This document shows positions 2,139 to 61,259 of a stretch of 64,000 nt of DNA, piece by piece. This stretch comes from a virus. The DNA lies in IMG/VR virus record IMGVR_UViG_3300006925_000008, positions 1-64,000 of that record; one strand, 5' to 3'. How positions within the stretch are numbered: the first letter of the stretch is position 1; each line of letters opens with the position of its first letter. A program made the position numbers and the translations under genes. The notes below the pieces were generated by a model. That model was not told the DNA's origin. It worked only from the letters and a program-made list of their open reading frames with translations, and ran no database searches.

Positions 2139-2158
2139 CCTCCTTCGGAGGGGTTATG
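2139..2158 (+). promoter_or_regulatory. Hairpin holding the chaperonin Shine-Dalgarno
   Basis: CCTCC (2139-2143), a TTC loop and GGAGG (2147-2151) form a five-pair GC stem in the mRNA just before the chaperonin ATG at 2156. The GGAGG half is itself the Shine-Dalgarno sequence. Folding would hide the ribosome binding site, so the hairpin could limit translation in a temperature- or structure-dependent way. The sequence complementarity is direct; the regulation is inference. Confidence 0.5.
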
Positions 2159-3799
2159 ATGCCCAACGGACAACAGCCGATATTCATAATGCCTGAAGGA
2201 ACAGACCGCACAAGAGGAAAGACGGCACAGGGTAACAATATCGCCGCCGCTAAAGCGGTTGCTGACGCAGTGAAATCAACACTAGGGCCTAAAGGAATGG
2301 ACAAGATGCTAGTCAATGGACTAGGCGATGTCCTCATTACCAATGATGGTGCTACAATCCTGCGTGAAATCAATGTCGAACATCCAGCGGCCAAGATGGT
2401 CATTGAAGTTTCAAAGACTCAAGAAGCACAGTGCTTCGACGGGACTACATCAGCCGTTGTTCTCGCAGGTGCTTTACTCAAGGAGAGCGAAGCACTGATC
2501 GAAAAGAATGTGCATCCGACTGTTATCGCATCAGGATACCGTCTCGCATCGTCTAAAGCATTGGAAACTCTTGAGAAGTGCGTGCTTGACGAAAGACAAC
2601 TGTCCAAGGTCGGTAAAGACCTAGGAGCCATTGCTAAGGTCTGTGCTGAAACAGCATTGACTGGCAAGTTTACTGATACTCACGAAGGAGTCAAGGATGT
2701 CATGTCAGGCATTGCGGGCGATGCCGTCAACAGATTGTCTGACGGGATAAACCCCCCAAACTTAGACGACATCAATGTGATATGTGCAACAGGTGGTTCA
2801 GTTGAAGACTCATACCTGATGGATGGAATTGTCCTAGAGAAGGAAAAGGCTCACAACGGAATGCCAACAGCAGTTGACGGAGCCTCGCTTGCATTGGTTG
2901 ACTTTGCTATTGAAGTTAAGAAAACTGAAGTCGATGCGAGAATCCAAATTACAAGTCCTGATCAAATGCAAGACTTCCTCGACCAAGAAGAAACAGCCCT
3001 GCGAAACATGGTGAAGAAGTTTCAGGATGCCGGAGCAAATGTGGTTCTATGTCAAAAGAAGATTGATGACCTAGCCCTGCATTACATGGCTAAGGCTGGC
3101 ATCATGGCATTACAGTCATGTCGAAAGTCCGAGTTGTCATCAGTCGCAAAGGCGACAGGTGCTGTTGTTATCAGTGACCTTGATGACTTAGTTGATGCTG
3201 ACCTTGGTTCCGCTGGACATGTGATTGAAGAACGAATTGGTGAGAACCTGATGGTTCGTATCGGTGGCGTGTCTGAAGTTGATTCAAGGGCGGTCACAGT
3301 CATCCTGCGTGGTGCAACCACCCATGTCGTTGAAGAGATTGAAAGAGCCTTCGATGATGCGCTTGGAGTAGTGTCTCTAGTCATCAACACCTCACAGATT
3401 GTCGTGGGCGGCGGATGCACATTTGCGGCAATGGCGAAGAACCTGCGTGAATATGCCAGCACTGTTGCTGGTCGAAAGCAGATGGCTATCGAAGCATATG
3501 CCAAGGCACTTGAAGAGATTCCTTCGACCATTGCTGAAAACGCAGGCATGGACCCAGTTGATTCGATCATCGCTTTGAGAGCGGCACACGCTAACAGCGC
3601 ATACACCCACGGAATCCTCGTTACAGATGAGGAGACCGACCTTCTAGTTGACAACCTCCTCCACTATGGAGTGGTTGAACCATTGAGCGTAGTCAAGCAG
3701 GCCTTGATTAGCGCAACTGAAACCTCGACCATGATTCTCCGCATCGATGATGTAATTCAAATGCGTCAAGCGGGGCCTCAAGGCTCACCTATGATGTGA
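2156..3799 (+). CDS. Group II chaperonin (thermosome subunit)
   Basis: A full-length 547-residue thermosome/CCT-type subunit, expected to form an ATP-driven double ring with a built-in lid that folds proteins in the cytoplasm. Visible hallmarks: the GQQPIF N-terminus, [10 protein letters not shown] (43-52), [21 protein letters not shown], the nucleotide-loop DGTT (95-98, with F instead of the usual G before D), the catalytic Asp region FDDAL (399-403) and GGG at 418-420. The C-terminus ILRIDDVIQ is typical, but the tail ends in GSPMM without GGM repeats. The segment around [12 protein letters not shown] and [11 protein letters not shown] resembles Thermoplasma thermosomes. It may fold capsid or tail proteins, as other virus-borne chaperonins do. 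Starts at ATG 2156 or 2159. Confidence 0.97.
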
Positions 3800-10180: not shown

Positions 10181-10332
10181 TGGAGGCCGCTGAAAAGGTC
10201 AATGTCAAATGCCCTGATTGTAAAAACGACTACATGCTAAGAGATGGGGAGAAAATGGATATAATCAACCGCAAGGTAAAACCAGTAATCAAATGCCCTG
10301 TTTGTAGGAGGTGGATGTTTCATGATGCCTGA
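10177..10332 (+). CDS. 51-residue zinc-ribbon microprotein
   Basis: ATG 10177 overlaps the previous TGA; the 51-codon frame ends at 10332 inside the start of the next gene (ATG 10322/10325). It carries KCPDCKNDYM and KCPVCRRW, a textbook two-knuckle zinc ribbon spaced 24 residues apart. Both coupling overlaps and both CxxC motifs support it. Confidence 0.7.
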   Translation: MMEAAEKVNVKCPDCKNDYMLRDGEKMDIINRKVKPVIKCPVCRRWMFHDA

Positions 10333-10855
10333 ACCAACACAGCGAGACATTGAATGGGCTTATCGTCTATGGAATGGTTTGGCTCTCGGAGGCTCGTGGA
10401 CATTGCCAGCAGTAGGCGTATATGTCAGGACAGGTGAGACTCAACTGACGCTGGCTATAATGCACAGTAGTAAACCCGTTGACGATGCTTTTGGCTCATC
10501 TATATTTGACCGACATGATTGGATTGTTGGGCTAAGTGAATTGATTAACTGGAATGTCAATGAGGATATTCATGAAGCATTTGACAATCATGAAGATCAG
10601 ATTATTGTAAAGGATGAAGACATCGGCAATGTCGCATTATGTGACACGGGCTGTGGTGCTATTATCCGTATTGTTGCATTGAATGCAGGAGTCCAATATA
10701 TCCCAATTAGCATGGAGGGCCAATGCCCCCTATGCGGCGAGTTGGAGGCAATTCCTCACGATATGAGGGGCAAGCATGTAGTTGTTGATGATTCAGCGTA
10801 TCTGATGAAACAGCAAAAGGCTAGAGAAGCACCACCTGTCAATGAAGAGGAATGA
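10322..10855 (+). CDS. Zinc-binding hypothetical protein
   Basis: A 177-residue protein beginning at ATG 10322 or 10325, overlapping the preceding microprotein. The C-terminal half contains CDTGC and CPLCG, one probable zinc ribbon. The N-terminal half looks globular with mixed alpha/beta content. No homology recognised. The stop overlaps the next ATG. Confidence 0.65.
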   Translation: MMPEPTQRDIEWAYRLWNGLALGGSWTLPAVGVYVRTGETQLTLAIMHSSKPVDDAFGSSIFDRHDWIVGLSELINWNVNEDIHEAFDNHEDQIIVKDEDIGNVALCDTGCGAIIRIVALNAGVQYIPISMEGQCPLCGELEAIPHDMRGKHVVVDDSAYLMKQQKAREAPPVNEEE

Positions 10856-11157
10856 ACATGACGAAGAAAACAGATTGGGGCCACCTTGAATCTAGGCTGA
10901 TAGGTAAAATCGAGGCTAGATGTCATATGGGGATGGAGTTGCACACTATGACTTCAAAGGGTTTCAATACACGCATTTTGAATATCAGACTTTTCCGAGT
11001 TGTCCCAAACTTTTCAGGACACACGGGCTATACGAAGCAGGGGGTCATGCTAACCAAAGATGAGGTTCGTGATTTACATTCTTATTTGACCGAGGCATTA
11101 GCAAATGACAGTCTTTGGGACGATCAAGAAACAAGCGGAGTTGTTCCTATTGAATGA
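10852..11157 (+). CDS. Hypothetical protein
   Basis: A 101-residue protein starting in a four-base overlap (ATG 10852; ATG 10858 is an alternative). It has a helical N-terminus, a beta central part (NIRLFRVVPNF) and a C-terminal helix (TKDEVRDLHSYLTEAL). No known domain. It precedes the TFB-like gene and may overlap it. Confidence 0.6.
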   Translation: MNMTKKTDWGHLESRLIGKIEARCHMGMELHTMTSKGFNTRILNIRLFRVVPNFSGHTGYTKQGVMLTKDEVRDLHSYLTEALANDSLWDDQETSGVVPIE

Positions 11158-11548
11158 ACAATTTTACGACATTCACTTTGAAAAGGCCGAGCAAATATGC
11201 TCCGCATTAGACCTTCCTCAAGACATTGCCATACTATCATATGACTTATGGATGGCATTACTGATGAAGGTCCCTAGGACTCCTGTGAGGCTTCTATGCG
11301 ATTGCATCTATGTCGTAGCACATATGACCGGCAACAGGCGTTCTGTCAATTCTCTAGCGGATACCGCTAAATCAGTCACCGGCTTCAGGGTCAGGGTTAT
11401 GTCAAAGGACAAGAGGAGGGAGGGGACTAGGTGGGTCCAAACCACCGATTTACAACCTATTGTGTTGAGCGTTATACCTGACCAAGATGCACTTGATTTG
11501 TTGCTATCTGAATACCCCTCCCCTCCAACGGAGGAGGGAGCGGCTTGA
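11105..11548 (+). CDS. TFB/TFIIB-like cyclin-fold protein
   Basis: Residues about 25-95 align by eye with one cyclin repeat of archaeal TFB: EQICSALDLPQDI, a helix ending YDLWMALL, the RTPVRLLCDCIYVVAHMTG helix and the NRRSVNSLADTAK helix that corresponds to the RTLDEIAQ segment. Full TFBs have a zinc ribbon and two repeats; this protein has one repeat and no zinc ribbon, so it would be a truncated or specialised factor. It might redirect host transcription. The start is uncertain: ATG 11105 overlaps the previous gene by 53 bases, while TTG 11150 has GCGGAG nine bases upstream. Confidence 0.5.
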   Translation: MTVFGTIKKQAELFLLNEQFYDIHFEKAEQICSALDLPQDIAILSYDLWMALLMKVPRTPVRLLCDCIYVVAHMTGNRRSVNSLADTAKSVTGFRVRVMSKDKRREGTRWVQTTDLQPIVLSVIPDQDALDLLLSEYPSPPTEEGAA

Positions 11549-13005
11549 ATACATATTCGGATTTACCTTTCAGGTCTCTTGCTGAATGCACTAGACTAAT
11601 GGGTTCATTGAAACCTGAACGCCTGATAGCAAACTGTTTGAATGCGAACAAATCAAATCAATACGCTATTGTTTACTACTTCTATTCTCCTTCTAGCGAT
11701 ACTCGGTTGTCTGATGAAGACTTCAGGGAGATATTCTTTCATCTGACCGATGCACATGCTGATGAGGTCGATGATGACCCTGACCCTATACACTTGTTAT
11801 CTCAATTGTCAGAAGCACATAGCACTACTATGAATGCGGGCCGTGCAATTAGCATTTTGAAAATGGTCCTGACAGCGAGTGATAATGAGTTAAGAGCCGA
11901 ATACATGAGGCCATTGTTTCAAAGGATTGACTCAAGAGACTTACATTCACTGATCATGAGAATGAGTATCAGAACGGGGGTTGCTAGAAGGAGACATATC
12001 ATCGCCGCACTAGCGTGGGCCAATGGAGAGTTGTATTACCAAATCAAAAGAGCATCATACTTAGTGGGTATGGAGAGGACATGTTTTGTATTATCGCAGG
12101 GCGAGGACCTGTATCCGCTCATACAGCCCAAAACAGGCATTGGCATCATAATCCCATCCCCCACCTATGTCGAGTCTCCAAATGATGTCAAGTTTACAGG
12201 CTGTTATATGGAGCATCCTGAAGGGGAGTGGATGAGCCTGCATGTAATGGAGGACACAATCAAATTGTTTGACTCATCAGGTTCCGAAGTTGACATGGAG
12301 GGCGGTTATGAGATATACAATACATTCCCCAATGGCATTTACCTCGTGGAGTATGCATCACATAGAGGTCGGCAACTGCTAGTGTGCGACATCCTCAATG
12401 ACAACAACCTCACCTATGCAAACAGAAGAAAATCGTTGGAAGATACATTACCTAAATGGGCTTTGAAAAAGGTCAAGAAATTATCTGACCCAACAGATGC
12501 AAGCCAGCATATATCGAAAGACAAAGCCGTTATACTGTGGAATGCTGATGGAGTAAACACTTATGAAAATACACATTATGAGATGGTTGTAATGTCAGCA
12601 AAGGTCAAGAAAAAGCCTATTTTCAGGGTGGTGAGTGGCAAATGGGTCGAATCTATTCACGAGTCTCACGCACCATTGGTGGGTAAATGGAGAGTAGCGG
12701 CTAGAGATGGCAACTCGTATTATCCAGTTGGATTGATCGAAGCGGAACCCGATATAACCAAGAAACTGAAACAGATGAACCCGTCATCGGCAAAATTGTT
12801 GAATGATGAGTTTACATTAGCCACCCCTATCTTTGTTGAAGCCGAGGTAAATGCCGCAGGCTGGGGTGACTATGGTCCATACATACACGGGCGGATAATT
12901 TCAATTGTCCATTCCGCTGGCAAGAAAGACTGTGTAGGGATTGAAGAGATAGAGATGCTTTGTGGGATGGATGAAGATGGGACAGAAGAACAACAGATTG
13001 GATGA
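11545..13005 (+). CDS. Divergent ATP-dependent DNA ligase homologue, motif I degenerate
   Basis: A 486-residue protein with the three-part layout of archaeal DNA ligases. The N-terminal helical DNA-binding domain (to about 160) contains GRAISILKMVLTASDNE and MSIRTGVA segments resembling the rK..lL..ll and LRiGv motifs. The adenylation-like region is about 185-355. The C-terminal OB-fold-like part (360-455) includes YYPVGLIEAE and ATPIFVEAEV. Where a ligase has KxDGxR, this protein has EHPEGEW (223-229): the nucleophilic Lys and the Arg are missing. Motif III (near E269) and motif IV (AVILW) are weak. Probably a non-catalytic or mechanistically altered ligase relative. The assignment is by eye. 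Confidence 0.5.
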   Translation: MNTYSDLPFRSLAECTRLMGSLKPERLIANCLNANKSNQYAIVYYFYSPSSDTRLSDEDFREIFFHLTDAHADEVDDDPDPIHLLSQLSEAHSTTMNAGRAISILKMVLTASDNELRAEYMRPLFQRIDSRDLHSLIMRMSIRTGVARRRHIIAALAWANGELYYQIKRASYLVGMERTCFVLSQGEDLYPLIQPKTGIGIIIPSPTYVESPNDVKFTGCYMEHPEGEWMSLHVMEDTIKLFDSSGSEVDMEGGYEIYNTFPNGIYLVEYASHRGRQLLVCDILNDNNLTYANRRKSLEDTLPKWALKKVKKLSDPTDASQHISKDKAVILWNADGVNTYENTHYEMVVMSAKVKKKPIFRVVSGKWVESIHESHAPLVGKWRVAARDGNSYYPVGLIEAEPDITKKLKQMNPSSAKLLNDEFTLATPIFVEAEVNAAGWGDYGPYIHGRIISIVHSAGKKDCVGIEEIEMLCGMDEDGTEEQQIG

Positions 13006-13168
13006 GGTATTTGCTATCGATAATTGGCTAATACGGTGGATGTGGATAATATGGCTTTTGACAATATCAATACTCACGATAATAGCATTGACTCCAATAT
13101 GGTTAGTCATCAAACTGATGGACTTAGCGGATTGGGCATGGATGCGGATATTTCACCGTCACCATTGA
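12977..13168 (+). CDS. Small membrane protein
   Basis: About 63 residues, starting ATG 12977 (or TTG 12998, overlapping the previous stop). One long or two short membrane helices are evident (WLIRWMWIIWLL then ISILTIIALTPIWLVI), followed by DLADWAWMRIF and a basic RHH end. It overlaps both the ligase-like gene and the next gene in other frames. A hydrophobic composition like this is unlikely by chance, but the overlaps leave some doubt. Confidence 0.5.
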   Translation: MGQKNNRLDEVFAIDNWLIRWMWIIWLLTISILTIIALTPIWLVIKLMDLADWAWMRIFHRHH

Positions 13169-13533
13169 GTTATGAGGATTTGACTAGAATCCTATTGGTA
13201 TCAACGATGAGGCCATCAATCACCTGTCAAAAAACAACTTCAAGAGCATGTGGATATATCATTAGGCCTGAAATTAGATTCCCTAGATTTACAGGGAGGG
13301 TGGCTCAATACTTGGAGTCGTTAGGCCTAATCCCTCGTGAGTTATATGCCAAGCCTGAAGAGATAAATAGAATACTTTCGATCACTAGAGGGATGGATGA
13401 GTTTGTCCCAAACCATGAGGGCCTTATGCTTGTCCGTGCATTGAATGGACGGCTCAAACAGCCTAAGAACCACCAAGAAGTTTTAGAGGCTTTACAGATG
13501 ATTGAGGACGCTAGATTGAGTGAGCCTTCATAA
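13099..13533 (+). CDS. Hypothetical protein
   Basis: About 144 residues from ATG 13099; ATG 13138 is an equally good start and would shorten the overlap with the membrane-protein frame. The convincing part is the C-terminal 115 residues: RPEIRFPRFTGRVAQYLESL, then helical EEINRILSITRGMDEF and EVLEALQMIEDA. The regular helices suggest a small DNA- or protein-binding domain. No family recognised. Confidence 0.55.
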   Translation: MVSHQTDGLSGLGMDADISPSPLSYEDLTRILLVSTMRPSITCQKTTSRACGYIIRPEIRFPRFTGRVAQYLESLGLIPRELYAKPEEINRILSITRGMDEFVPNHEGLMLVRALNGRLKQPKNHQEVLEALQMIEDARLSEPS

Positions 13534-13585
13534 GAGAGATGTTGATAGGACATATCCCGCAGAAGCGTAAAATGAGTTGAAGATT

Positions 13586-14908
13586 ATGATGAATGAGACA
13601 CTAAAGAGAATAGGAACAAGCAAAGGATGGTCCGACGAAGAAACAACTAGCAAGTTTGCTGTGTTTGTTCAAGAGTCCTTCCCCGAAGTATGGACACAGA
13701 ACGGAAATAAATTGGACGGCCTAGATGCCGATGATTTGGACTTCTTTTCAGCATCCTTCGATGTCAGCATGAACCGTCGCACTGGCGGCGGCGGCGGCAA
13801 AGGCGAAGAATGGGTTGGCATGATTGTAGCATACAATGGCCGACGAGACACTATGGAGCGACAGCGAACACTTGCTGTTGACAGTGCTGAAGGAAACCTT
13901 GCACAGGCATTGCGTTACGGAATGCAGTATAACGGCAACCCTGTCGGTATTGGCCGTGCATATCTGAATGATGGCGGAGACTGGGTTCTAGTCGATGCTG
14001 ATGACAAACAGGTCCATTCTGAAAAGGCTTCAGACAAACCTCCTCGCTGGGTCATCCCGATCAATGGCGGTCAAATGCACATTGCTATGATTGGCTCAAA
14101 GAACGGTGGCAAATATCCAAAGCCTGCATTCATGCCTAAGCGTGAATGGGTGTTCATTGGCAACAAGAAGGACCTATTCCTTTCAGATGGTCCATTGCCT
14201 CCTCGCACGCTTGAATGCTCCTTTGAATCGGCTGATTTGCACTTACAGATGCATCGCCCAATTCGTTTCAAGGCTGAAGAAGCCGAGGGTTGGCCTGACA
14301 AGACCAAGACTATCCTCCGCACTGGCAACATGACGGCATCATACGACCTAGAATGGGTCCCTGATGCTCAACTGGACAAAGCCACTGCCATCTTCAAGCC
14401 TGACCAATTCATGGCTCAATTCATGGATGTTGTTGATTTGAATGACCTGTGGGAATACCACGATGCAAATGCAACTACTTCTCCAAATGGTAAAACATAT
14501 GGTCCAACCTTCGCCATTTCAGGCGTTGTCGATTACATTGATTATGACGGCAAAGAAGCACCATCCTTCATCGAAGGCGGCTTCAAGCATTCTCTCACTA
14601 TCAGCAGTAACAGTCTCCGCCGAGATAACCCTGATGCCAGCCTTTGGGTCGAATTGACTCGCTACTTGGTTGACAACCATCAGGCTTTGAAGGTTCTGAA
14701 GCAGGACGGCTGGAAGCCTTATGCCCGTGGTTCAAGAGTTTGGATTGTTGTTCGATCACGAACATGGGATGCAACCGATGGCTCTCGCAACATGTCTCTT
14801 GATGGCCTTAGCACCTATGCTATGCCAATGCGTTCAATCGTCGCTCAAGAGCCTGACGCTCAATCAAGTGACCTAACTGGTCTCAACGACTTCAGCGGTG
14901 GTGCTTGA
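13586..14908 (+). CDS. Probable single-stranded DNA-binding protein
   Basis: About 440 residues (ATG 13586 or 13589). A Gly-rich segment (TGGGGGKG) near residue 70 precedes beta-rich regions. The last 120 residues, from FAISGVVDYIDYDG to SRVWIVVRSRTWD and LDGLSTYAMPMRSI, have an OB-fold-like beta pattern. The C-terminus is short and acidic-polar (LTGLNDFSGGA), loosely like SSB tails. It lies directly before a RecA/Sak4-like ATPase, the usual place for a phage recombination SSB. Codon use (more CGC, CTC, GTC, few rare codons) differs from its neighbours and suggests high expression. No sequence match was made, so the function is tentative. Confidence 0.4.
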   Translation: MMNETLKRIGTSKGWSDEETTSKFAVFVQESFPEVWTQNGNKLDGLDADDLDFFSASFDVSMNRRTGGGGGKGEEWVGMIVAYNGRRDTMERQRTLAVDSAEGNLAQALRYGMQYNGNPVGIGRAYLNDGGDWVLVDADDKQVHSEKASDKPPRWVIPINGGQMHIAMIGSKNGGKYPKPAFMPKREWVFIGNKKDLFLSDGPLPPRTLECSFESADLHLQMHRPIRFKAEEAEGWPDKTKTILRTGNMTASYDLEWVPDAQLDKATAIFKPDQFMAQFMDVVDLNDLWEYHDANATTSPNGKTYGPTFAISGVVDYIDYDGKEAPSFIEGGFKHSLTISSNSLRRDNPDASLWVELTRYLVDNHQALKVLKQDGWKPYARGSRVWIVVRSRTWDATDGSRNMSLDGLSTYAMPMRSIVAQEPDAQSSDLTGLNDFSGGA

Positions 14909-15241
14909 ATGGGCTGGTGGCCTTTGGACCTCAAGACTGGGGGTATTGCTTTTGGGGCTGAAGGTCTCAAAGAAGGACTCATGTGGGGCGACTCCGTTGC
15001 CGACATTGTTGATGCGGAGTTGACTTCGTTCCTTCACCAAGTCATCAAGCAAACTAGCGCAGTGTTCACCGCCGAAGTTGGCAGGGAACCAATGCCTATT
15101 GAGATTCTATGCGGTTTGGCATTCAGCCTAAACGCCTGCGAGACTCACGAGCCATTGAACAGTCTATTTCCTGAAGGCATTAAATCAGCACATACGCTGA
15201 AGGTTGAAGTCGGACGGGTTGATCAGGAGGACTTAGAATGA
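14909..15241 (+). CDS. Hypothetical protein
   Basis: A 110-residue protein starting one base after the preceding stop (TGAATG). Mostly helical, with VADIVDAELTSFLHQVIKQ and a stretch EILCGLAFSLNACE. It ends in an ATGA overlap with the RecA-like gene. The position between the putative SSB and the recombinase suggests a partner of one of them; nothing more can be said. Confidence 0.6.
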   Translation: MGWWPLDLKTGGIAFGAEGLKEGLMWGDSVADIVDAELTSFLHQVIKQTSAVFTAEVGREPMPIEILCGLAFSLNACETHEPLNSLFPEGIKSAHTLKVEVGRVDQEDLE

Positions 15242-16431
15242 GCGGAACAGGATTTTTTGACAGCGTTGCATTGGTGGACACCACGAAGGACCCATCTGAA
15301 ATGAAGAAGGTCCCGGTGCAGGAATTGCCATCGACTTCAACAGTTGCGGCCCCATCAAAGGTTATGAACCCAAACCCCCCTTCTGAACCAATCGACTACA
15401 CCAGCCCAAATCCCCCAATCGATTCGCTCATTGAAGAGGTCGTGGCGGAGATGCCAATTCAGGCGGCTCACAGTAGCCAACTGACTAACTGGGACTCACC
15501 GGGGGCTTTCATTGTCAAAGACGCTAGACTATTGGCTCAATATACGCCAACATGCGTTTTAGCCATGATTGCAGGTCCTGCAAAGAGCGGTAAGACGGGA
15601 ATGGTGCTAGATAGCCTCACGCCTGAAGAAGTGGCCAATGGTGCTGAAATATGGCATGTTGATTTTGACTTGGGTGGAGACACCACTAAGGCGGCTCACC
15701 ATTCTGATAAGAAGGACAACATTGTCGTTATCTCTCCGTGGGTCATGGTTCAGAATCAAAGCCGTGTCCCTTATGACTTTCAAGCAACATATCAGCGTGT
15801 GCTGGACATTCTAAACCACGCTCATGAAGTTGCCAAGGAACAGGCTAAGTATTTCATGGAGCATGGGTCAATGCCAAAACCGTATCTGAAGACTCTAGTA
15901 TTCGACGGTGCTGATCAATGGCTGAACATCTGTGGGACCTTGATGAAGGTGTATGACCTTGAATTAGGTCGTGATGGCATTGCCACTACTGGTCAAAAGA
16001 CCACCACCAAAATTGGCCGTTTCAACTGGGAGATTCGTAAGAACAGATACAGGGCGGCTTTGCCTCATGGGATGCAGGAGACCGCTCGTTTGGGCGTTCA
16101 CTGCTATGTGATTACTCACATGAAACCATCCTATGACAGCAATGGCAACGAGATTCTTGGGTCTGATGTCCCTGACATCCTCCCTCGTAGCGAGGGAGAC
16201 TTTCAACAGTTGATTCATGTCAAGGTGTTGCAGGAACGCAATGAGAAGGGCGAGTTGACAGGCAGTAGCAGGTCGCAAGCAACAGTCGTTGAGAACCGCA
16301 CCAGTTTGAAGTGTGGACAGCCAATCGTGCTATTCGTCCGTAATGCCGAAAACCCACAGTGGTATGGCTGGCCGGGGCTTAGGGATGGTTCATTCGATCA
16401 TGGGACCGATTTGATTGGTTATCCTGAATGA
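15238..16431 (+). CDS. RecA-like ATPase, Sak4/AAA_24 type
   Basis: A 397-residue protein with a disordered, Pro-rich first 75 residues. The RecA-fold core has Walker A GPAKSGKT (113-120), a strand ending in the acidic VDFDLGGD, Walker B LKTLVFDGAD (D223) and a later VHCYVITHMKPS strand. The order and the Walker A form resemble Sak4-like single-strand annealing recombinases and related phage ATPases. It probably works with the upstream putative SSB in recombination-dependent replication or repair. The start overlaps the previous stop. Confidence 0.75.
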   Translation: MSGTGFFDSVALVDTTKDPSEMKKVPVQELPSTSTVAAPSKVMNPNPPSEPIDYTSPNPPIDSLIEEVVAEMPIQAAHSSQLTNWDSPGAFIVKDARLLAQYTPTCVLAMIAGPAKSGKTGMVLDSLTPEEVANGAEIWHVDFDLGGDTTKAAHHSDKKDNIVVISPWVMVQNQSRVPYDFQATYQRVLDILNHAHEVAKEQAKYFMEHGSMPKPYLKTLVFDGADQWLNICGTLMKVYDLELGRDGIATTGQKTTTKIGRFNWEIRKNRYRAALPHGMQETARLGVHCYVITHMKPSYDSNGNEILGSDVPDILPRSEGDFQQLIHVKVLQERNEKGELTGSSRSQATVVENRTSLKCGQPIVLFVRNAENPQWYGWPGLRDGSFDHGTDLIGYPE

Positions 16432-16717: not shown

Positions 16718-16938
16718 AGCAGGAGTGGCAGTGGATGACAACTCTAAATATCAAGGACGCTGGTGTTGCCGAAGCCTCTAGGACCATGTGTTGGTTCTGT
16801 GGTGGTAAAATGATTTGGCAATGCGATAATGACTTGGATGAAGTTTTCATGACTGAAGATGAAGGGATCGTCGCCACGCTAGTATGCGACTCCTGCAATG
16901 CCACAGCGCAATACATACAGAAGGAGGAGTCCGAATGA
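16714..16938 (+). CDS. Small zinc-ribbon protein
   Basis: A 74-residue protein with two CxxC knuckles (CWFCGGK and CDSCNA) about 35 residues apart, separated by an acidic loop. It overlaps the previous stop by four bases and the next start (ATG 16935) by four bases. Lying between the RecA-like ATPase and the Fe-S nuclease, it may be an accessory to either; this is inference. Confidence 0.65.
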   Translation: MKQEWQWMTTLNIKDAGVAEASRTMCWFCGGKMIWQCDNDLDEVFMTEDEGIVATLVCDSCNATAQYIQKEESE

Positions 16939-17978
16939 GCATTGAGCCATCCGCATCAGGAATCAAAGGAGTCAAGCCTCCGGGTATATACCCCATAGAA
17001 GGTCGAGATGGCTTGTATTCAGGATACGGCTATCACCCTGTTGATGGAGCATCCCCTGACTTTCTATTGAGGGTCAGTAAGTCATCATTGAATACATTTC
17101 AATTCTGCGAACAGCAGTATTTTATCAAATACATGCTTGGTGTTAAGGAGATGCAAAATGATAACATGTTGAGGGGGACAAATGTCCACGATGCCCTAGA
17201 GGACTTCTATGACGCTATTGACCTCGACCATGCTCAAGCCCTGAAAGAGGAGGGGGACATCAATGCCGTTTATCGATACTTTACTGGGTTCATTCCGAAT
17301 GTGAGTAAAGAGAAGGAATACAAAGGGGAGGTAAGCCCCTCAATGCCATTCACCCTAGGCGAGGAGGACCACCTCGACAGGTTAATGCAAATTGAAGCAG
17401 GCCGCTTTATGTCATCAGACCTAGAAAACTTCCTCCCCGTGATCAACGAGGACACACTAGATGCAATCATCGATTTGAATGTCGATGGTAAGACAATTTT
17501 AGTCCATTTGACGGGTATTGTCGATAGGGCGTTTGCTGATGGTGCTGGCAACCTGCATATTCACGAATTAAAGACTGGCCTGTGGAAGCACAGCGACGGC
17601 AAATTAGATTCAATGCGGAAGGAGATGGCATTCTATGTCTATTTGCTCCGCAAGTCCAAGGGACACCCTCTTAGCGGCACTACCGCCACCTATTGGGGCT
17701 GGGACCATACGAAGGGAGATACAGAAGGAAAAGAGTTGTATCGCTTTGTTGAGAATGTCCGTTCAGATTCAATTCAAGATGTGATAAGAGACCTGAAATC
17801 ATTGGTCCGAATGCACTTGAGATATACTGGGAACAACAATGGATGGATGTTTCCTCAAAAACCAAATGGCTGGGCCACTATGAAACTGTGCGAGCCTTGG
17901 TGCGCTGTCAAGGGCTTTTGCCCCAAATATGGGAGGGTATTGATGCCCCATGACATGAAGAAGGAGATAGAAATATGA
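16935..17978 (+). CDS. RecB/Cas4-family PD-(D/E)XK nuclease with Fe-S cysteines
   Basis: ATG 16935 follows GGAGGAG, giving 347 residues. The fold signatures are all present: SKSSLNTFQFCEQQYF, GTNVHDALEDF (His85), Asp197 in GIVDRAF, and HELKTG (Glu211, Lys213), followed by EMAFYVYLL where the QxxxY motif normally lies. Four cysteines (C58, C319, C323, C329) are placed as in Cas4 and AddB, which hold a 4Fe-4S cluster. It should be a metal-dependent exonuclease that resects DNA ends for the adjacent recombinase. There are no CRISPR genes nearby, so a Cas role is unlikely. Confidence 0.85.
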   Translation: MSIEPSASGIKGVKPPGIYPIEGRDGLYSGYGYHPVDGASPDFLLRVSKSSLNTFQFCEQQYFIKYMLGVKEMQNDNMLRGTNVHDALEDFYDAIDLDHAQALKEEGDINAVYRYFTGFIPNVSKEKEYKGEVSPSMPFTLGEEDHLDRLMQIEAGRFMSSDLENFLPVINEDTLDAIIDLNVDGKTILVHLTGIVDRAFADGAGNLHIHELKTGLWKHSDGKLDSMRKEMAFYVYLLRKSKGHPLSGTTATYWGWDHTKGDTEGKELYRFVENVRSDSIQDVIRDLKSLVRMHLRYTGNNNGWMFPQKPNGWATMKLCEPWCAVKGFCPKYGRVLMPHDMKKEIEI

Positions 17979-18397: not shown

Positions 18398-19498
18398 ATG
18401 GGTTCAATGTTCCGTCATTTCCCTCGTGAGGTCTGTATGAGGACTCGCAGGGTTGTAAAGAATGAGGAACAGTTACAGAAGTATGTCCTAGCCACCAATG
18501 GCAAAGACAACATAACCACCACCGTATATGGGTTCAGGGAGTTGAAGCCGAAAGGCAACCGTGGCGAGTATAATACCGCCATTGTCCCCCACTTCGTAGT
18601 TGACTTAGACAAAGACAGACTTCAGGGTATGAGCGATGCTGAAGCAGGACAGCGATGTTCTGAAGAGGCATGGCGGTTATCAGCGCACCTATTGGAAAAT
18701 GGATGGAGACATGCAGTATGGTTCACTGGCGGTGGTTTTCACATATGGGTCAACCTTGATCAGGAGTATGTCTTAGAACCTATGGAGTTGAATGACCTGC
18801 TTGTATCAGGCAGGGCGTTAATCTCAAAATGGGTCAAAGACATGGACTTACAAACACTTGACCCAGTTGTATCGTTTAGGCCTGACCGTCATATACGGAT
18901 ACCAAACTCATTCAATTTCAAACGAAACATATGGTCGATTCCCTTGTATTTAGGGGGCATCTCCGAGGGTTGGGACCATATTGTCCAAAGAGCCAAAGAA
19001 CCATCAAACATCAGCATGTGCTTAATGGGCGACAAGGGTATGCCCTTAGAAGTAATCAAGCGAGACCCAAATAATCCATTCGGCCCTCAAGGAGGAGGCT
19101 TTGCGAAGCAGGAGTTTAATGCTGAAGAGGTCGAAATAGAGATGAAGCGTATTGGGAATATCCCTATGTTGCCCTGTCTCGCTGAAGCCACATGTGAAAC
19201 TGGTGCAAATCCTCCGCACCTGCCGAGGGTGTATCTGATGATGTATCTGTTGGATTACTTCAACCGATTCGCACGACCCCCATCTAACTCAAAAATATCT
19301 ATCGATGATCGTGTCAATCAGGCACACGCATTCATCGCTCAATTGAAATGGGCTGATTACAAGCCTGATGTAACTCACAAGTATCTCAAGCACGGGGCGG
19401 AAAGGCAATACCAAACACCGACCTGCCCCACATTATATCGTGAAGGATTATGCGTGGGTAAATGTCCATTTTATGATGGCAAAGGAGTTGGAAATTAG
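18398..19498 (+). CDS. Archaeo-eukaryotic primase with fused PriL-type Fe-S domain
   Basis: A 366-residue protein. The catalytic AEP core shows FVVDLDKD (Asp69 and Asp71, metal ligands), the GGGFH motif (His115), and the later DPVVSFRPDRHIRIPNS region. The C-terminal half resembles the PriL C-terminal Fe-S domain: PC at 260, RVYLMMYLLDYF, then Cys343, Cys352 and Cys356 in the TLYREGLCVGKCPFY context. It thus combines PriS and PriL functions in one chain, as in some plasmid and virus primases, and would make primers (possibly DNA) for viral replication. The segment FRHFPREVCMRTRRV looks protein-like, so ATG 18398 is preferred; ATG 18437, preceded by GTGAGGT, is an alternative. Confidence 0.85.
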   Translation: MGSMFRHFPREVCMRTRRVVKNEEQLQKYVLATNGKDNITTTVYGFRELKPKGNRGEYNTAIVPHFVVDLDKDRLQGMSDAEAGQRCSEEAWRLSAHLLENGWRHAVWFTGGGFHIWVNLDQEYVLEPMELNDLLVSGRALISKWVKDMDLQTLDPVVSFRPDRHIRIPNSFNFKRNIWSIPLYLGGISEGWDHIVQRAKEPSNISMCLMGDKGMPLEVIKRDPNNPFGPQGGGFAKQEFNAEEVEIEMKRIGNIPMLPCLAEATCETGANPPHLPRVYLMMYLLDYFNRFARPPSNSKISIDDRVNQAHAFIAQLKWADYKPDVTHKYLKHGAERQYQTPTCPTLYREGLCVGKCPFYDGKGVGN

Positions 19499-21049: not shown

Positions 21050-22498
21050 ATGCTATTGAGACCAACTACTGATGCTGGCGGGAGAAAGTGGGATGACTAT
21101 ACTCTAGTCAAATCCGACTTTGAAGGCAGTAAATACATACGCAACTACATTTCACGATTCAACACAGTCTCTTTCTTTAACGAATATGCGGGGATGCTTT
21201 CATACTTCTTTGTAGCAGGCCAAGCACTTTCACCATACATGCGAATACCAATACATGGCGCACATGTTGATTGTAGGGTGCATGTCTATTGGATTCAACA
21301 ATCAAGGACTGGTAAATCGATTGCATATGAGTTTACGGCAAAACTGTTGAGAGCGTGCGGTATTGAAACCGAGTCTTTCAGTGGTGGCTCCGATGCTAAA
21401 ATGATCGGAACGGTCATACAACAAGCAACATACGACGATGACGGCAAACCAAACGGTGAGGAATATGTCACGGTCCCCGGTATCCTAAATGGATACAAAA
21501 CGCTTCTATTCGATGAAGCGAGTATATTGCTGAATGATGCAAAGGCATATTTCAGCGACAAAATCCTCTATCTCCAACAAGCGATGGCCCCGATAGGCAG
21601 TGAGACCAATGTATTGGTTAAGCACCTTGTGGGGGGGTCTGTGAGGACTCCATCAGGTGTCTCCTTATGGATGACCACCTATCCGCCAAAGGACATCATG
21701 TCGCATGTCTTAGAGAAGGGATTCTTTCAGCGTGTGTTTCTATATCAAAATGATGTAGGTGTCGAACAGCGTCAAACCACCAGTGAACATCGGATGGGGG
21801 GCGTATATGTCCCCGTCCCCGACAAGGTTTGGTCTTATGAAAACCTAGCCGAGTTTATTTTGGACATTCAAGGCTTGGTTAAGGCACGGTTACTGAAGGC
21901 CGCAGGTCTAACTGATGAGGAATGGGACGAGTTGGAGGAGGGTGTGAAAGAGGAGATTGCCATTCGTCACACATACGACATATTCAACATAGGCCCGTCA
22001 TATCATGCCGCACTGTTGAATGCTGTTGACGACTATTATGCACTGATCAAAGGAATCAACAATGACATCATCAGGGAGACAGCAATGTCATTTATTCCCA
22101 ATGTCGAAAACTACACTATCATTTTCGCCAACATCATTGCCGCCACCATGAAGACATCCGTCATCACAGCCGACCATGTAATGATGGCCACTGAAATCAT
22201 TTATGACAACCTCCATAATCTCATTATTTGGCTTGAACAGAAGCAAGATGTCAAGGCAAAGAAGCGAAGAGAGAATGAGATGCACGGCTGGAAAAAGGCA
22301 TACAACTTATGTGGCAAGTTTGCTCATAAGAAGTCAAACAAAGAAGTCGTGGCTAAGAAGGACCTTGAGAAGAGGTATGCCTCCGAAGCGGCTGTCAGCA
22401 CTAGAACCGCTGAAAGAAGGCTTGACAAGTTGATTGCCAACAGTCAGGCTGAACGGTTGATGGATGGCCGAAAAGCATTCATACACTTGAGTTGGTAA
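21050..22498 (+). CDS. Helicase-like P-loop ATPase next to the primase
   Basis: A 482-residue protein from ATG 21050 with AGGTG 11 bases upstream. Walker A is unusual, QQSRTGKS (83-90); Walker B is LLFDEAS (D155, E156). A sensor-like SLWMTTYPP strand and an FQRVFLYQ segment follow. The last 100 residues contain a winged-helix-like region (KKDLEKRYASEAAVSTRTAERRLDKL). The arrangement resembles phage replicative ATPases of the DUF3987 or MCM/SF3-like kind. It is placed with the primase and nucleases, so a replicative helicase role is the best guess. Family level is uncertain. Confidence 0.55.
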   Translation: MLLRPTTDAGGRKWDDYTLVKSDFEGSKYIRNYISRFNTVSFFNEYAGMLSYFFVAGQALSPYMRIPIHGAHVDCRVHVYWIQQSRTGKSIAYEFTAKLLRACGIETESFSGGSDAKMIGTVIQQATYDDDGKPNGEEYVTVPGILNGYKTLLFDEASILLNDAKAYFSDKILYLQQAMAPIGSETNVLVKHLVGGSVRTPSGVSLWMTTYPPKDIMSHVLEKGFFQRVFLYQNDVGVEQRQTTSEHRMGGVYVPVPDKVWSYENLAEFILDIQGLVKARLLKAAGLTDEEWDELEEGVKEEIAIRHTYDIFNIGPSYHAALLNAVDDYYALIKGINNDIIRETAMSFIPNVENYTIIFANIIAATMKTSVITADHVMMATEIIYDNLHNLIIWLEQKQDVKAKKRRENEMHGWKKAYNLCGKFAHKKSNKEVVAKKDLEKRYASEAAVSTRTAERRLDKLIANSQAERLMDGRKAFIHLSW

Positions 22499-23229
22499 TG
22501 ATGTTTAAGAAAAGTCTAGGAAATTGGTTAGAAGAAAACAGGGTATATACGATCAAGGCATTTTCTGAAACGGATGCCTGCGATTTACCACATGGCTGGG
22601 AAAAGCCTAGCGAGTTTACTTTGAATGCCATCGTAATCAAAGGCGGGCATGGCGAGCATCTAGTTTTCACTGACGAGATATACACAGTCAAAATAAATGC
22701 ACGGACTGTTGAAGTTAGGAACCTCGACACTTTTACTGAATGGGTTCAAGGTTTGCACCCCGAATCAGTAATTGTAGGGTATGGCTCAAAAAACTTCGAC
22801 ATACCGTTGATTGAGTCTGTGTATCCTCTCGCCTTTATTAACCGAAAAGGGGACCTTCTATTTCACGACCTGTTAGAATTGGTTCAGGACATGACAGCGA
22901 AACACTACGACTCATACCCCCGAAGAATATCCTTGACGGCTTTAGCCAGTATGAACAAAATCCGTGATTCTATAATCCCATTACCTAGTATCGTGACTTC
23001 AACCTTACAATTGCTATCAATGTGGCGTTCTAAGAACAAGGCAGGAGTCTTGAAAAACCTCATTGCTGAAGCCCATACAATTGCACGCTTAATGTGGCAA
23101 ATGGACATAGATGATGGTTCGTTGTTGATCAGGGACGAAAGAACGGACAAAAGAGTCAGACTTACTGCTGACGACTTTTCGATTCGTTCCGACACGACTC
23201 CCGAAGACCATCCGAAAACATCCGAGTAA
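22498..23229 (+). CDS. Exonuclease-like (DEDD fold) protein, active site incomplete
   Basis: About 243 residues from ATG 22498. The segment VIVGYGSKNFDIPLIES matches the Exo II motif of PolB-type 3'-5' exonucleases (G-[HY]-N..FD.P). Upstream, where DxE of Exo I should lie, the strand reads LNAIVIKGG with no acidic pair. The expected Exo III Asp is also not obvious in LIAEAHTIARLMW. It may be an inactivated relative or just very divergent. Its 3' end overlaps a leftward gene by 68 bases at the convergence point of the two transcription directions. Confidence 0.45.
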   Translation: MMFKKSLGNWLEENRVYTIKAFSETDACDLPHGWEKPSEFTLNAIVIKGGHGEHLVFTDEIYTVKINARTVEVRNLDTFTEWVQGLHPESVIVGYGSKNFDIPLIESVYPLAFINRKGDLLFHDLLELVQDMTAKHYDSYPRRISLTALASMNKIRDSIIPLPSIVTSTLQLLSMWRSKNKAGVLKNLIAEAHTIARLMWQMDIDDGSLLIRDERTDKRVRLTADDFSIRSDTTPEDHPKTSE

Positions 23230-57572: not shown

Positions 57573-57785
57573 ATGTCAGACGAGGAACATGAATGCAGTA
57601 TATGTGGTGGGGAGTTTAATGGTGAAAATGGACGACTGGCGTTCATTGGGGGTGTTTTAATCAAAATAGGACCGTGGTGCATATCTCCTATCATGGAGAT
57701 GTTCAAAGACCAAATTATTGGGGATTTCATAGAAGACCTCCCCGATGCACTTAGAATAGAGATTGAAAAACACTCAAGCGAGTAA
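57573..57785 (+). CDS. Lone rightward zinc-binding protein within the late region
   Basis: About 70 residues from ATG 57573 (57555 possible). Begins MSDEEHECSICGGEF, then IGPWC and a helical acidic end DQIIGDFIEDLPDALRIEIEK. One zinc site at most. It is the only rightward gene in 41 kb of leftward genes, overlaps the end of the large 1161-residue gene by 12 bases, and has its own TATA box. A regulatory or host-takeover role independent of late transcription is possible. Confidence 0.6.
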   Translation: MSDEEHECSICGGEFNGENGRLAFIGGVLIKIGPWCISPIMEMFKDQIIGDFIEDLPDALRIEIEKHSSE

Positions 57786-60700
57786 TTCATCTTCTTCAAG
57801 TTGGTCAGTGGCTTCAACCTTAGTCCTTACTTCTTCTTCAGTTGCCTGTGCTTGAGGAGTCCTCAATGGATAGGAGAGTTTGGCCCGACCCATTTCAATA
57901 TCAATACTAGCGGGTCCGTCTTTCTGTGGGTCCATACTAATTTGCAGGTGGTATGGCTGTTCCACCTCCTCCTCCGGTTCTTCATCATTCAAATTAGACA
58001 AAGCACCTATTGTTGTAGCATCATCGTCGGTCAACTCCGTTGGACCTCTTGGTGCGGTAATATCTGCTTGCATTCCTGACCATGCGCCGCCATCAGGCGA
58101 AGCACCATTCATACGAGGATATACGAAGTTTTCAATGATGTCATCATCAATTGCCTCATTTACGGTCCACTTATCTCCCTCCTCGGTTCTTTCAACACCG
58201 TATTCAGGGCCAAAAACCTCAATCATTTTAGGGGTCAACCCCTTGACAGCAGTGCATAACTCATCTGAAGTCATTGCTTCTTCAGCATCAGACAACGCCC
58301 TGCGTGCGTGAACCATCATGTGAGACTTTTCTTCACGATCACCGCTGTCATCAAGTAATTCAGGCGCACGGAGAATCAAATCGTCTTCTGTATTGACACG
58401 CTTACGAGGTTTCTTTCTTTTAGAAGGGGCTGAATGTATTGCGGAATGTGTCCCGCCTGTTGTTGACGACACCGTGCCAGCACCACCAGCACCAGCACCA
58501 GCACCAGCACCACCGCCGCCAGCCGCACCTTCTTTCAATAAGGCAATAGCAACTGGACCCCATAGTTTCAGTTGAGTCCTCGCATGTTTCACTAGCGTGG
58601 TGGTTCCCCTATACAGGTCGATGTCCATAGCATGTCTGCCATTGAATTGACCTTTAACGATAACTGGCTCTAATAACCCCGGATACTCCAAAATGATGTC
58701 CTGTCCTTTCACCATTACTTCAGGCAGTGGTCCATATGGGACTGTCTTAGCAATTTCTTCATCAGCAAAGTGAACCCATTTAGGGTGCATCTCTTTACCT
58801 TTGATAAAAGTCGAGGTGGCATCCCTAATCAACAAACCAGTGCCGCCCAATTCGTCCACTGCCTTTGCTAAACCATGCTCATCAGTAGTGATACATGAGT
58901 TTGGCATTGGGAAGTGAAGGTATTCATCTGAATGATAAAGTGTTCTTAGAGCGTTCAATCTGTCTTCTAAAGGCTCCATGTGAAGGTCTGTTCCTTTATG
59001 GACTAGGAGGTCAACCACATTCAGTTTGTCTCCTTTCACATATGCATCAACCGTAAAGTCACCTTTACGCTCTTTCAATGCTTTTTTGACCTTTGATGGC
59101 AAGTCGATTGGGTCAACTCTTTTACCCTCTTTCTTAACAAGCATTCTCTTACCTTCAGGCATTTTCTGAACAACCCACTCACCACTAAATCCTTTGATAG
59201 TGGATAGGTCATCTAAATCGTAAACCGTGTGGGCTGGCTTGATCATCGTTTCAAACACACCAGTCGGCTCATAGTCATCCGCTTTTCGCAATGAACCTGT
59301 TTGAAGAGGTGCATACCCGCTTTGGTCAACTGAAGAGATTGCATTGATGTCCTTTGTTTTAGGCGATAACTTTGACATTGGACCCATGAGAGCAGGGGAT
59401 ATTGCCCTCACTAAATCAGCATGAGCCGTTCTTTGGAGTATGTTGAAAGGGGCATCAGCAATGTTGTATGCGTATCCCTGTTGTTCCGGGTCATAACGCC
59501 ATGTTAAGGTGGCGGGCATGTCATGCCCCCAAGCGTCAGTATCGCCACTCACATAAGTTGGGGGAACGATAGCATGGGAATCAGGGGAGACTGGCCCCAC
59601 TGAACCCATAGTCGAAGACATTTCCGCATTCGGTGCTAGAGTTTTGTAGGACTCGCCCATTTGCATACGAAGTAATGAATGGTTTGCCGCCGCCGCTATT
59701 TGTTGAAGGTTGCCTCGACAAATAGTATGCATCATCTCATCATCAGAACCCATTGGATTCAAAACTTGAGGACCAAATTGAGCAATCACCTTTTGAGCAT
59801 GTTGTTGCATAACACGAGACATATGACTGTTTGAGGCCCTAAAGTGTTCGTTATGGTGACTCCAATAGTCATCAGTCGAAAACGGATGCTCCTCTCGCCC
59901 ATAGCCGGTTCTAGGTCCCCCCATGTCGGTTTGAGCGGCTAATGCACGCCCTAGACTGGACATCATCAAAGCGTCATCGGGGACATCAATACGACCACCG
60001 CTCAATTCTGAAGGGTGTTCATGTAACCTGTTTGATGCCGCTGAATACATTGCGAGCCTCTTTTGATAATCATTGTCAGGGTCGAAGGTTGAACCCAATG
60101 CGGCCCTGCCGGGGTGGTCCGGCTCCATTTGATTAACAGCACTAGGAAAATGAGTCCCACCTTGATTAAACGAGCCAGCCTCTTCTAAGTCATGGTTGAT
60201 CAGATGTTTATTCATCCAACCCCCATTGAATATATCAGGGTAAGACTGACTTAATATGCTATCCAATGAATCTATACTCCTGCCAACTCCCCCCCAATAC
60301 TGGTATGGTTCCCAATGATGGTAATTCATTGAAGGCTCGATACCTGACTCACTTGATACCCAAGGAGACATGTAATGCTGTAAGTCTCCCCCCGGATGTG
60401 GTTCTGTTGGCCCGTGTCTATCAGGGGACCTTTGCCACCAAGACGACATTGGCTTGAATCGTTCTCTCCAATTTCTCAATGCACGCCCCCAAGAGATGCC
60501 TGCCTTTTCTTGAAATTGATTCTCTATTCGTTTTGCATCAGGCGAACCCTCTTCGGTCATTGCCATTTGTCCCATAAGGTCCATGAAATTACTACGCTGT
60601 CCTTCAGTAATCCATTCTAAACCAAACAACTGTGGCAACATGCCAAACGAGGTGGACAACTCCTGTCGCTTATTGTCGTGATATTCCTCATCGCTAAGGA

Positions 60701-61259
60701 ATGAATTACGATTCCGATCACGAGTATAAAGGTCATGTTGGCTCTCAATAGGCAGGCCTAGATAATTGACAACTGACATCTCACTGGTTGGGACCTTTGC
60801 TTTAGCCTTTTCATTTTCAGCCATGATTGGCAGTTGCTCAATAGAACGCATGATGTGATGAACATATTCAGGGTCTCCATGTGCCGCACCATGCAATAGA
60901 GGGTGGCTATTTGATTTCATGCCAAAGGGATGGTGTTCACCAAATGGGTTATCCTCCTTCGCCTGTGGCCAGTCTTGAGTATAATCGGTTGTAACCTTTG
61001 CATGACCTGAAAGGTAATTCTTGAGGTTTTCAGGGATTACCATGCTAGTGGCCGAGACTGGGCTATTCAAATCACGCATCGAATATGCCGGTGTCGATTC
61101 AGCCACGGCTAATGTCGAAGCCAAAGCCTCATCTTCAGGCGTGGGCATACCCCCCTGCATTGCTTCGGTATAGGAGGGAATGTCAACATCCTTCAACAAA
61201 AGTATTGACAGGACGGTATCGGTTCTTTTGAGAATCAACTCTTCCTGTTCTTTAGACAT
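57774..61259 (-). CDS. Large late protein with embedded ligase-like nucleotidyltransferase domain
   Basis: A 1161-residue protein between portal-side genes and the protease. Residues 1-660 are hydrophilic, His/Met/Gln-rich and unrecognised. Residues about 665-835 follow the order of an ATP-dependent ligase adenylation domain: motif I region QKMPEGKR (698-705), FTVDAY (735-740, motif III), VVDLLVHKGTDL with EPLEDRL, GTGLLIRD (806-813, motif IV) and HPKWVHF (825-831, motif V). Motif I is K-x-x-E-G-x-R instead of K-x-D-G-x-R, with one extra residue. A Gly/Ala linker (912-929) and a C-terminal acidic region follow. It may be virion-associated; activity is uncertain. Confidence 0.6.
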   Translation of the reverse strand: MSKEQEELILKRTDTVLSILLLKDVDIPSYTEAMQGGMPTPEDEALASTLAVAESTPAYSMRDLNSPVSATSMVIPENLKNYLSGHAKVTTDYTQDWPQAKEDNPFGEHHPFGMKSNSHPLLHGAAHGDPEYVHHIMRSIEQLPIMAENEKAKAKVPTSEMSVVNYLGLPIESQHDLYTRDRNRNSFLSDEEYHDNKRQELSTSFGMLPQLFGLEWITEGQRSNFMDLMGQMAMTEEGSPDAKRIENQFQEKAGISWGRALRNWRERFKPMSSWWQRSPDRHGPTEPHPGGDLQHYMSPWVSSESGIEPSMNYHHWEPYQYWGGVGRSIDSLDSILSQSYPDIFNGGWMNKHLINHDLEEAGSFNQGGTHFPSAVNQMEPDHPGRAALGSTFDPDNDYQKRLAMYSAASNRLHEHPSELSGGRIDVPDDALMMSSLGRALAAQTDMGGPRTGYGREEHPFSTDDYWSHHNEHFRASNSHMSRVMQQHAQKVIAQFGPQVLNPMGSDDEMMHTICRGNLQQIAAAANHSLLRMQMGESYKTLAPNAEMSSTMGSVGPVSPDSHAIVPPTYVSGDTDAWGHDMPATLTWRYDPEQQGYAYNIADAPFNILQRTAHADLVRAISPALMGPMSKLSPKTKDINAISSVDQSGYAPLQTGSLRKADDYEPTGVFETMIKPAHTVYDLDDLSTIKGFSGEWVVQKMPEGKRMLVKKEGKRVDPIDLPSKVKKALKERKGDFTVDAYVKGDKLNVVDLLVHKGTDLHMEPLEDRLNALRTLYHSDEYLHFPMPNSCITTDEHGLAKAVDELGGTGLLIRDATSTFIKGKEMHPKWVHFADEEIAKTVPYGPLPEVMVKGQDIILEYPGLLEPVIVKGQFNGRHAMDIDLYRGTTTLVKHARTQLKLWGPVAIALLKEGAAGGGGAGAGAGAGGAGTVSSTTGGTHSAIHSAPSKRKKPRKRVNTEDDLILRAPELLDDSGDREEKSHMMVHARRALSDAEEAMTSDELCTAVKGLTPKMIEVFGPEYGVERTEEGDKWTVNEAIDDDIIENFVYPRMNGASPDGGAWSGMQADITAPRGPTELTDDDATTIGALSNLNDEEPEEEVEQPYHLQISMDPQKDGPASIDIEMGRAKLSYPLRTPQAQATEEEVRTKVEATDQLEEDELLA
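58481..58513. repeat. (ACCAGC)n tandem repeat encoding a Gly/Ala linker
   Basis: About five six-base ACCAGC-type units in a row. On the coding (minus) strand they encode GAGAGAG, the flexible linker after the ligase-like domain. A candidate for length variation. Confidence 0.6.

Follow-up and report, generated by a model that had tools for sequence, protein, structure and literature searches.

Our analysis showed that a virus DNA from IMG/VR encodes a DNA ligase homologue that has lost its catalytic residues and is nevertheless kept intact by selection. The protein, P0001, is well supported as a three-domain DNA ligase homologue and is predicted from its motifs to be a catalytically dead one. 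A non-catalytic, DNA-bound role, one of the possibilities raised in a preliminary description of this DNA, is the leading idea for its function. The sequence analysed, called the window, comprises 64,000 nucleotides, corresponding to positions 1 to 64,000 of a virus record of 97,368 bases (G000). The gene and its landmarks are as follows, in window coordinates.

11545 to 13005, plus strand: pseudo-DNA ligase P0001, 486 aa, supported by the ORF call, AlphaFold2 and Foldseek, hhalign and a joint alignment; its approximate domains are DBD (residues 1–195), NTase (196–355) and OB (356–486)
11530 to 11538, plus strand: GGAGGAGGG, a Shine-Dalgarno-like sequence 6 nt 5′ of the TTG start of P0001, read from the sequence
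12211 to 12231, plus strand: motif I relic EHPEGEW, residues 223–229 of P0001, with His224 (codon 12214–12216) at the nucleophile position
12334 to 12390, plus strand: motif III to IIIa of P0001, residues 264–282, with Glu replaced by Gly264 and a spacer of 17 instead of 39–40 residues

The start codon is TTG, and the end of the upstream ORF (11548) overlaps the start of P0001 by four bases. Single-sequence searches with P0001 against Pfam, PHROGs and PDB sequences gave no ligase match, so its identification as a ligase comes from comparing structures and profiles. Relatives were sought in viral contigs by two scans, which gave 49 IMG/VR loci at 32–100% identity; 42 family sequences were aligned, and a 28-sequence alignment was used for AlphaFold2. 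No relatives were found in INPHARED phages, and a search of genome_contigs returned none of P0001 and none of the window chaperonin.

The AlphaFold2 model of P0001 (pLDDT 82.5, pTM 0.70) has the three-domain DBD-NTase-OB fold. Upon Foldseek search against PDB, archaeal DNA ligases were the top matches over the full length (3rr5, E 5e-21; 6wbo, 5e-20; 2cfm, 6e-20), and the BFVD list was headed by viral DNA ligases. The ligase architecture of N-terminal domain, middle domain and OB-fold end that had been read from the sequence alone is therefore upheld, and a fold other than ligase, which would have spoken against it, was not what structure prediction gave. The TM-scores against ligase structures were low (0.3–0.4), which in our view comes from a difference in how the domains are arranged; the claim thus covers a chain of domains and not one rigid shape. 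P0001 is similar to the archaeal LigI-type ligases of Thermococcus sp. 1519 (3rr5), P. furiosus (2cfm) and A. fulgidus (3gde) in domain order and full-length fold, and it keeps the ligase motif landmarks G227, H233, D282 and Y340. Unlike them, it lacks the catalytic residues of motifs I, III, IV, V and VI, its III–IIIa spacer is about 22 residues shorter, and its NTase and OB domains are acidic.

To compare the motifs, 24 pseudo-ligase representatives were aligned jointly with 36 intact ones. In all 36 intact ligases, motif I has its Lys, Asp, Gly and Arg, motif III its Glu, motif IIIa its Phe and Asp, motif IV its Glu and Lys, and motif V its Lys; R, D and K of motif VI are kept in 35. G227 and H233 are invariant in both groups, and in this register KYDGNR pairs with HPEGEW. 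Motif I of P0001 had earlier been described as EHPEGEW with Glu in place of Lys and Trp in place of Arg. The absence of Lys and the change of Arg to Trp229 hold, but the register was one off: the nucleophile position is occupied by His224, Glu223 precedes the motif, Asp is replaced by Glu226, and Gly227 is kept. Elsewhere in P0001, the motif III Glu is Gly264, the motif IIIa Phe is Cys281 while Asp282 is kept, the motif V Lys is Ser351, and R, D and K of motif VI are Val, Ser and Ala. The second Lys of motif V is present as Lys353 but is not conserved across the family. In motif IV, Glu is replaced by Asp335 and Lys is deleted, the exact pairing here being dependent on gap placement. The motif III Glu is Gly, and the motif IV Lys is deleted, in every one of the 24 pseudo-ligase representatives. 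The III–IIIa spacer has 17 residues in the four pseudo-ligases measured versus 39–40 in the three intact viral ligases measured.

Lys was found at the motif I nucleophile position in none of the 42 aligned family members; the residues there are I (16), T (7), S (6), N (3), H (2), E (2), P (2), R (2), Y (1) and V (1). Since the whole family is without this Lys, a sequencing or assembly error as its cause is ruled out, and no member of the same family appeared with an intact KxDGxR, which would have pointed to such an error. The earlier view of P0001 as catalytically dead is thus extended to motifs III, IV, V and VI and to its relatives. A displaced nucleophile was also considered: many relatives have a Lys five residues upstream (position 219), but this residue is G in P0001 and the position is not conserved. 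That P0001 is still a nucleotidyltransferase-type enzyme with an altered nucleophile or chemistry appears very unlikely to us. The gene is conserved, and Gly and His are retained in motif I, as such an enzyme would have it; however, ten different residues occupy the nucleophile position, and the motif III and IV changes are uniform, although an active site elsewhere in the protein would still be compatible with these losses.

The intact counterparts of P0001 were found in sister viruses. One IMG/VR contig (L093) encodes a ligase of 519 aa with intact KYDGNR and Pfam DBD, NTase and OB domains. From its relatives in viral contigs, the best 80 of 428 stretches were kept and 56 were used for profile comparison. 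The pseudo-ligase family aligned with these 56 intact ligases end to end by hhalign (Prob 93.6, P 2e-7, 433 columns), whereas unrelated family pairs gave P 0.03–0.5 under the identical procedure. A small profile of five archaeal ligases gave no significant match to the family (P 0.28 and 0.13), and significance was reached only with the deeper ligase set from sister viruses. In the tree, the pseudo-ligases group as a single clade (support 100) that branches close to the base of the intact viral ligases; a branch length of 6 and long-branch warnings make this placement uncertain. P0001 is a homologue, and very probably the orthologue, of the ATP-dependent archaeal-type ligase in the replication operon of related viruses. 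The magrovirus-like ligases of these sister viruses (L093, L096 and relatives) have in common with P0001 the full-length profile homology and an operon with RecA-like and SSB-position genes. They differ from it in that all 36 representatives retain KYDGNR and the remaining motifs, and in that they sit with RFC and PolB.

The genes around P0001 belong to the same neighbourhood, of which three types (A, B and C) could be distinguished. The window is of type C.

10322 to 11548, plus strand: three conserved upstream neighbours (177, 101 and 147 aa), predicted ORFs, in an order shared by most type C loci and partly by type B
13024 to 13533, plus strand: conserved downstream neighbour of P0001, 169 aa; in the type B contig L062, RFC lies between this gene and the SSB-fold gene
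13577 to 14908, plus strand: 443-aa protein with an SSB/telomere-end-binding (OB) fold by AlphaFold2 and Foldseek (2cwa, 1e-5; 1ph1, 1.5e-5)
15238 to 16431, plus strand: RecA-like P-loop ATPase, whose sequence shows the Walker A motif GPAKSGKT; hhalign P 3e-39 to the type A counterpart at the same place
16884 to 17978, plus strand: PD-(D/E)XK nuclease (PF12705, 2e-21)

The 443-aa protein matches the 412-aa gene that occupies its position in type A viruses (hhalign P 4e-8); its label "RPA-like" first came from position, and the SSB/OB fold was later supported by structure prediction. The RecA-like protein had no match in Pfam or PHROGs. In all 32 type A loci, an intact ligase is followed by RFC, the 412-aa gene and the RecA-like gene, and a clamp-like gene and PolB were present in all 30 whose sequence extends that far. 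Type B, found in five contigs (L062, which is the same as L205, and L201–L204), has a pseudo-ligase with motif I VIRGER, then RFC, the SSB-fold gene, the RecA-like gene, the clamp-like gene and PolB, so that the last two separate the RecA-like gene from the PD-(D/E)XK nuclease. PolB and AAA/RFC were identified by Pfam in L062. The gene at the clamp (PCNA) position had no confirming Pfam or PDB match and hence is called clamp-like only. In the 35 type C loci, the order is pseudo-ligase, 169-aa gene, SSB-fold gene, RecA-like gene and nuclease, with a gap of 32–85 bp before the SSB-fold gene where type B has RFC. No RFC or PolB match was found in these 35 loci or in the window. The homologues at the SSB position and the RecA-like homologues thus lie downstream of the ligase gene in all three types, and RFC and PolB in types A and B.

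At genome scale, PolB (PF00136) was found in all 14 intact-ligase records and in the one type B record searched, but in none of 12 type C records, and the L062 PolB used as a query likewise had no match in the 12. No member of the pseudo-ligase family was present in the 14 intact-ligase records. No PF01068 match over the cut-off was obtained in 16 pseudo-ligase records, some of which are fragments. One of the 16, a record of 96,627 bp (G011), carries a 98-bp direct terminal repeat, situated within the pseudo-ligase gene (contig ends L190 and L191), and is therefore probably a complete genome. Type B viruses have a dead ligase together with PolB, which indicates that the loss of ligase activity did not need the loss of the polymerase. 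On the simplest reading, ligase activity may have been lost before the polymerase.

Our estimates further showed that the pseudo-ligase gene is maintained. Against a relative of 91% identity (L010), P0001 had dN 0.046 and dS 0.93, and other pairs were alike; the dN/dS of about 0.05 indicates that the protein is under purifying selection and is not decaying. A decaying relic without function might be suspected, because catalytic residues and a segment have been lost in a lineage in which RFC and PolB also go undetected. Such a relic is contradicted by the selection estimate, by a full-length open frame in nearly all pseudo-ligase loci recovered, by the conservation of family-specific residues and by the retention of the pseudo-ligase in type B viruses too, and we consider it hardly credible.

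Several other genes of these loci deserve mention. At 18398 to 19498 (plus strand) the window encodes a 366-aa protein with the archaeo-eukaryotic primase-looking motifs VDLD, GGGFHIW and FRPDRHIRIPNS and with no Pfam match; it is kept in type C viruses, being 55–57% identical among those compared. A 245-aa protein at 22492 to 23229 (plus strand) has a PolB-exonuclease-like stretch, GYGSKNFDIPLI, and a weak match to a PHROG 'DNA polymerase' (E 0.08), and could prompt a false PolB annotation. Most family B polymerases have GDTDS as motif C; in L062:16647-18974 and L093:19654-20586 this motif is GHTDS.

A second ligase-like domain lies in a late protein, P0002.

57774 to 61259, minus strand: late protein P0002, 1161 aa, with a degenerate ligase-like domain, between portal and prohead protease
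58545 to 59318, minus strand: ligase-like NTase domain of P0002, residues 648–905, with the motif I relic K-M-P-E-G-K-R

The domain was recognised by a weak PF01068 match and by hhalign (P 1e-4 to 6e-4). It is degenerate, having lost the motif III Glu and the lysines of motifs IV and V; P0002 has M where the nucleophile would be, and some of its relatives have K there. P0002 homologues were present in 13 of 13 pseudo-ligase records searched. In its type A counterpart the ligase domain is intact (PF01068, E 1e-31), and the gene directly precedes those for protease and capsid in each of the three loci examined; five of these counterpart sequences were read and three regions were scanned with Pfam, the remainder being similarity matches only. 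In L198:5710-8289 (plus strand), L199:6106-8661 (minus strand) and L200:6505-9015 (plus strand), the intact PF01068 domain is part of a head-module protein of 837–860 aa. These viruses bear PolB, and the protein, which adjoins the prohead protease and the major capsid protein, is possibly a virion-associated ligase.

Like P0001, the P0002 domain is a degenerate ligase-like NTase with a shortened III–IIIa segment. Unlike P0001, it belongs to a separate late gene by the head module, has no evident DBD or OB, and keeps the motif I Arg. Recent paralogy of the two proteins was considered and rejected, as their profile similarity is weak (P 0.01–0.06) and each has its own intact counterpart. A PEG core had been proposed as a signature common to both, but in the P0001 family only the G is invariant and the E nearly so (41 of 42), and in the late-protein family the pattern is P-x-G-x-R, where x is E, Q, K, S or L. 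The preliminary description had also taken only one of the two ligase relatives as dead and had suggested a split of function. Judged by their motifs, both viral ligases are degenerate in this lineage, and both proteins are kept. Both genes exist in intact form in other viruses; the pattern therefore resembles a parallel loss of activity within a single lineage and does not support a split.

The source is probably a virus of marine archaea. Among the products encoded in the window are a thermosome, a portal-like protein, a prohead protease and an SU10-type capsid protein, a gene content in keeping with a tailed virus infecting marine group II (MGII) archaea. The head genes, thermosome and related operons agree with published MGII viruses, a possible placement being Magrovirales with a host among Poseidoniales. 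The thermosome, a group II chaperonin at 2156 to 3799 (plus strand; PF00118, E 3e-154), has been described in the literature for one clade of MGII viruses. An HMG-CoA lyase-type enzyme has been described for magroviruses, and L176:13603-14496 (minus strand) encodes a 297-aa protein of this look, with EVGPRDGLQ near its start.

P0001 is predicted to be dead and yet is kept intact by selection across the lineage, which suggests that it probably has a non-enzymatic job in viral DNA copying or repair. The charge of its domains bears on what this job may be. The median charge in pseudo-ligases versus intact ligases, with shared ancestry ignored, is +2 versus −3 for the DBD, −9.5 versus +1 for the NTase and −6 versus −3 for the OB domain. 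The acidic NTase and OB domains argue against a classic ligase clamp round a nick and for an adaptor anchored by the DBD. The best explanation, to which we give somewhat more credence than doubt, is that P0001 is the dead ligase of the viral replication operon, now serving as a non-catalytic DNA-binding adaptor. As its fold suggests, the DBD would hold duplex DNA at a nick, gap, end or recombination junction. The charge shift suggests that the DBD may have kept this contact while the former catalytic face became a docking surface. The acidic NTase and OB domains, without an adenylate site, could then form a docking arm for the SSB-fold protein, the RecA-like protein or the host ligase, and the sealing of nicks would, we assume, be left to the host ligase.

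A dead ligase might instead act as a protector, binding nicks or ends and keeping host ligase, nucleases and repair proteins off, for example so that ends or concatemers remain available to be recombined or packaged. By its shape the ligase fold is one that binds nicks, and P0001 adjoins recombination-type genes (SSB fold, RecA-like and PD-(D/E)XK) in viruses in which no sealing enzyme of their own (PF01068) was detected. However, nick recognition by ligases requires the NTase and OB faces, which in P0001 are acidic, and motif VI is gone; we regard protection as unlikely. A protein-only scaffold or allosteric partner that does not bind DNA, and that either forms part of a viral complex for replication or recombination or modulates the host ligase or clamp, is doubtful, though less so than protection. 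It would fit the acidic domains and also the invariant residues GWGD and RLSDEDFRE, which are specific to the pseudo-ligase family and missing from intact ligases. RLSDEDFRE, in the DBD, is the strongest family signature, and since most of it is missing from intact ligases, the function of the DBD may also have changed. On the other hand, the DBD keeps its helical layout and is slightly more basic than that of intact ligases.

There is a laboratory parallel to the DNA-binding adaptor that we prefer. In yeast, Dnl4 that has lost catalysis still supports imprecise end joining, likely via Cdc9 (PMC3694833). Catalytic mutants of DNA ligase IV, among them yeast dnl4-K466A, illustrate that a ligase without adenylation can keep a role in DNA repair (PMC3694833); a non-catalytic role is proposed here for P0001 too. 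These are laboratory mutants of a eukaryotic end-joining ligase, whereas the P0001 family is natural, fixed and much more degenerate.

Types A, B and C suggest successive stages by which a virus gave up replication machinery of its own; that the dead ligase is more than a by-product of polymerase loss is shown by type B. In a broader scenario, which we offer tentatively and hold to be possible rather than probable, a widespread lineage of marine archaeal viruses made both its replication and head-module ligases non-catalytic, with PolB and RFC first kept (type B) and then lost (type C), and the pseudo-ligase became a DNA-anchored adaptor that hands viral DNA to the sealing and copying enzymes of the host. 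In published accounts, magroviruses are listed with an ATP-dependent DNA ligase, and independence from the host has been inferred. A gene of the present lineage annotated as ligase by its fold would not seal DNA, and we do not equate the ligase named in the ICTV profiles with P0001. We know of no natural pseudo-ligase family that is fixed across a virus lineage, and our literature search for one found none. If our reading is true, the ligase scaffold has a selectable use without its chemistry, an idea that so far has rested on engineered Lig4 mutants.
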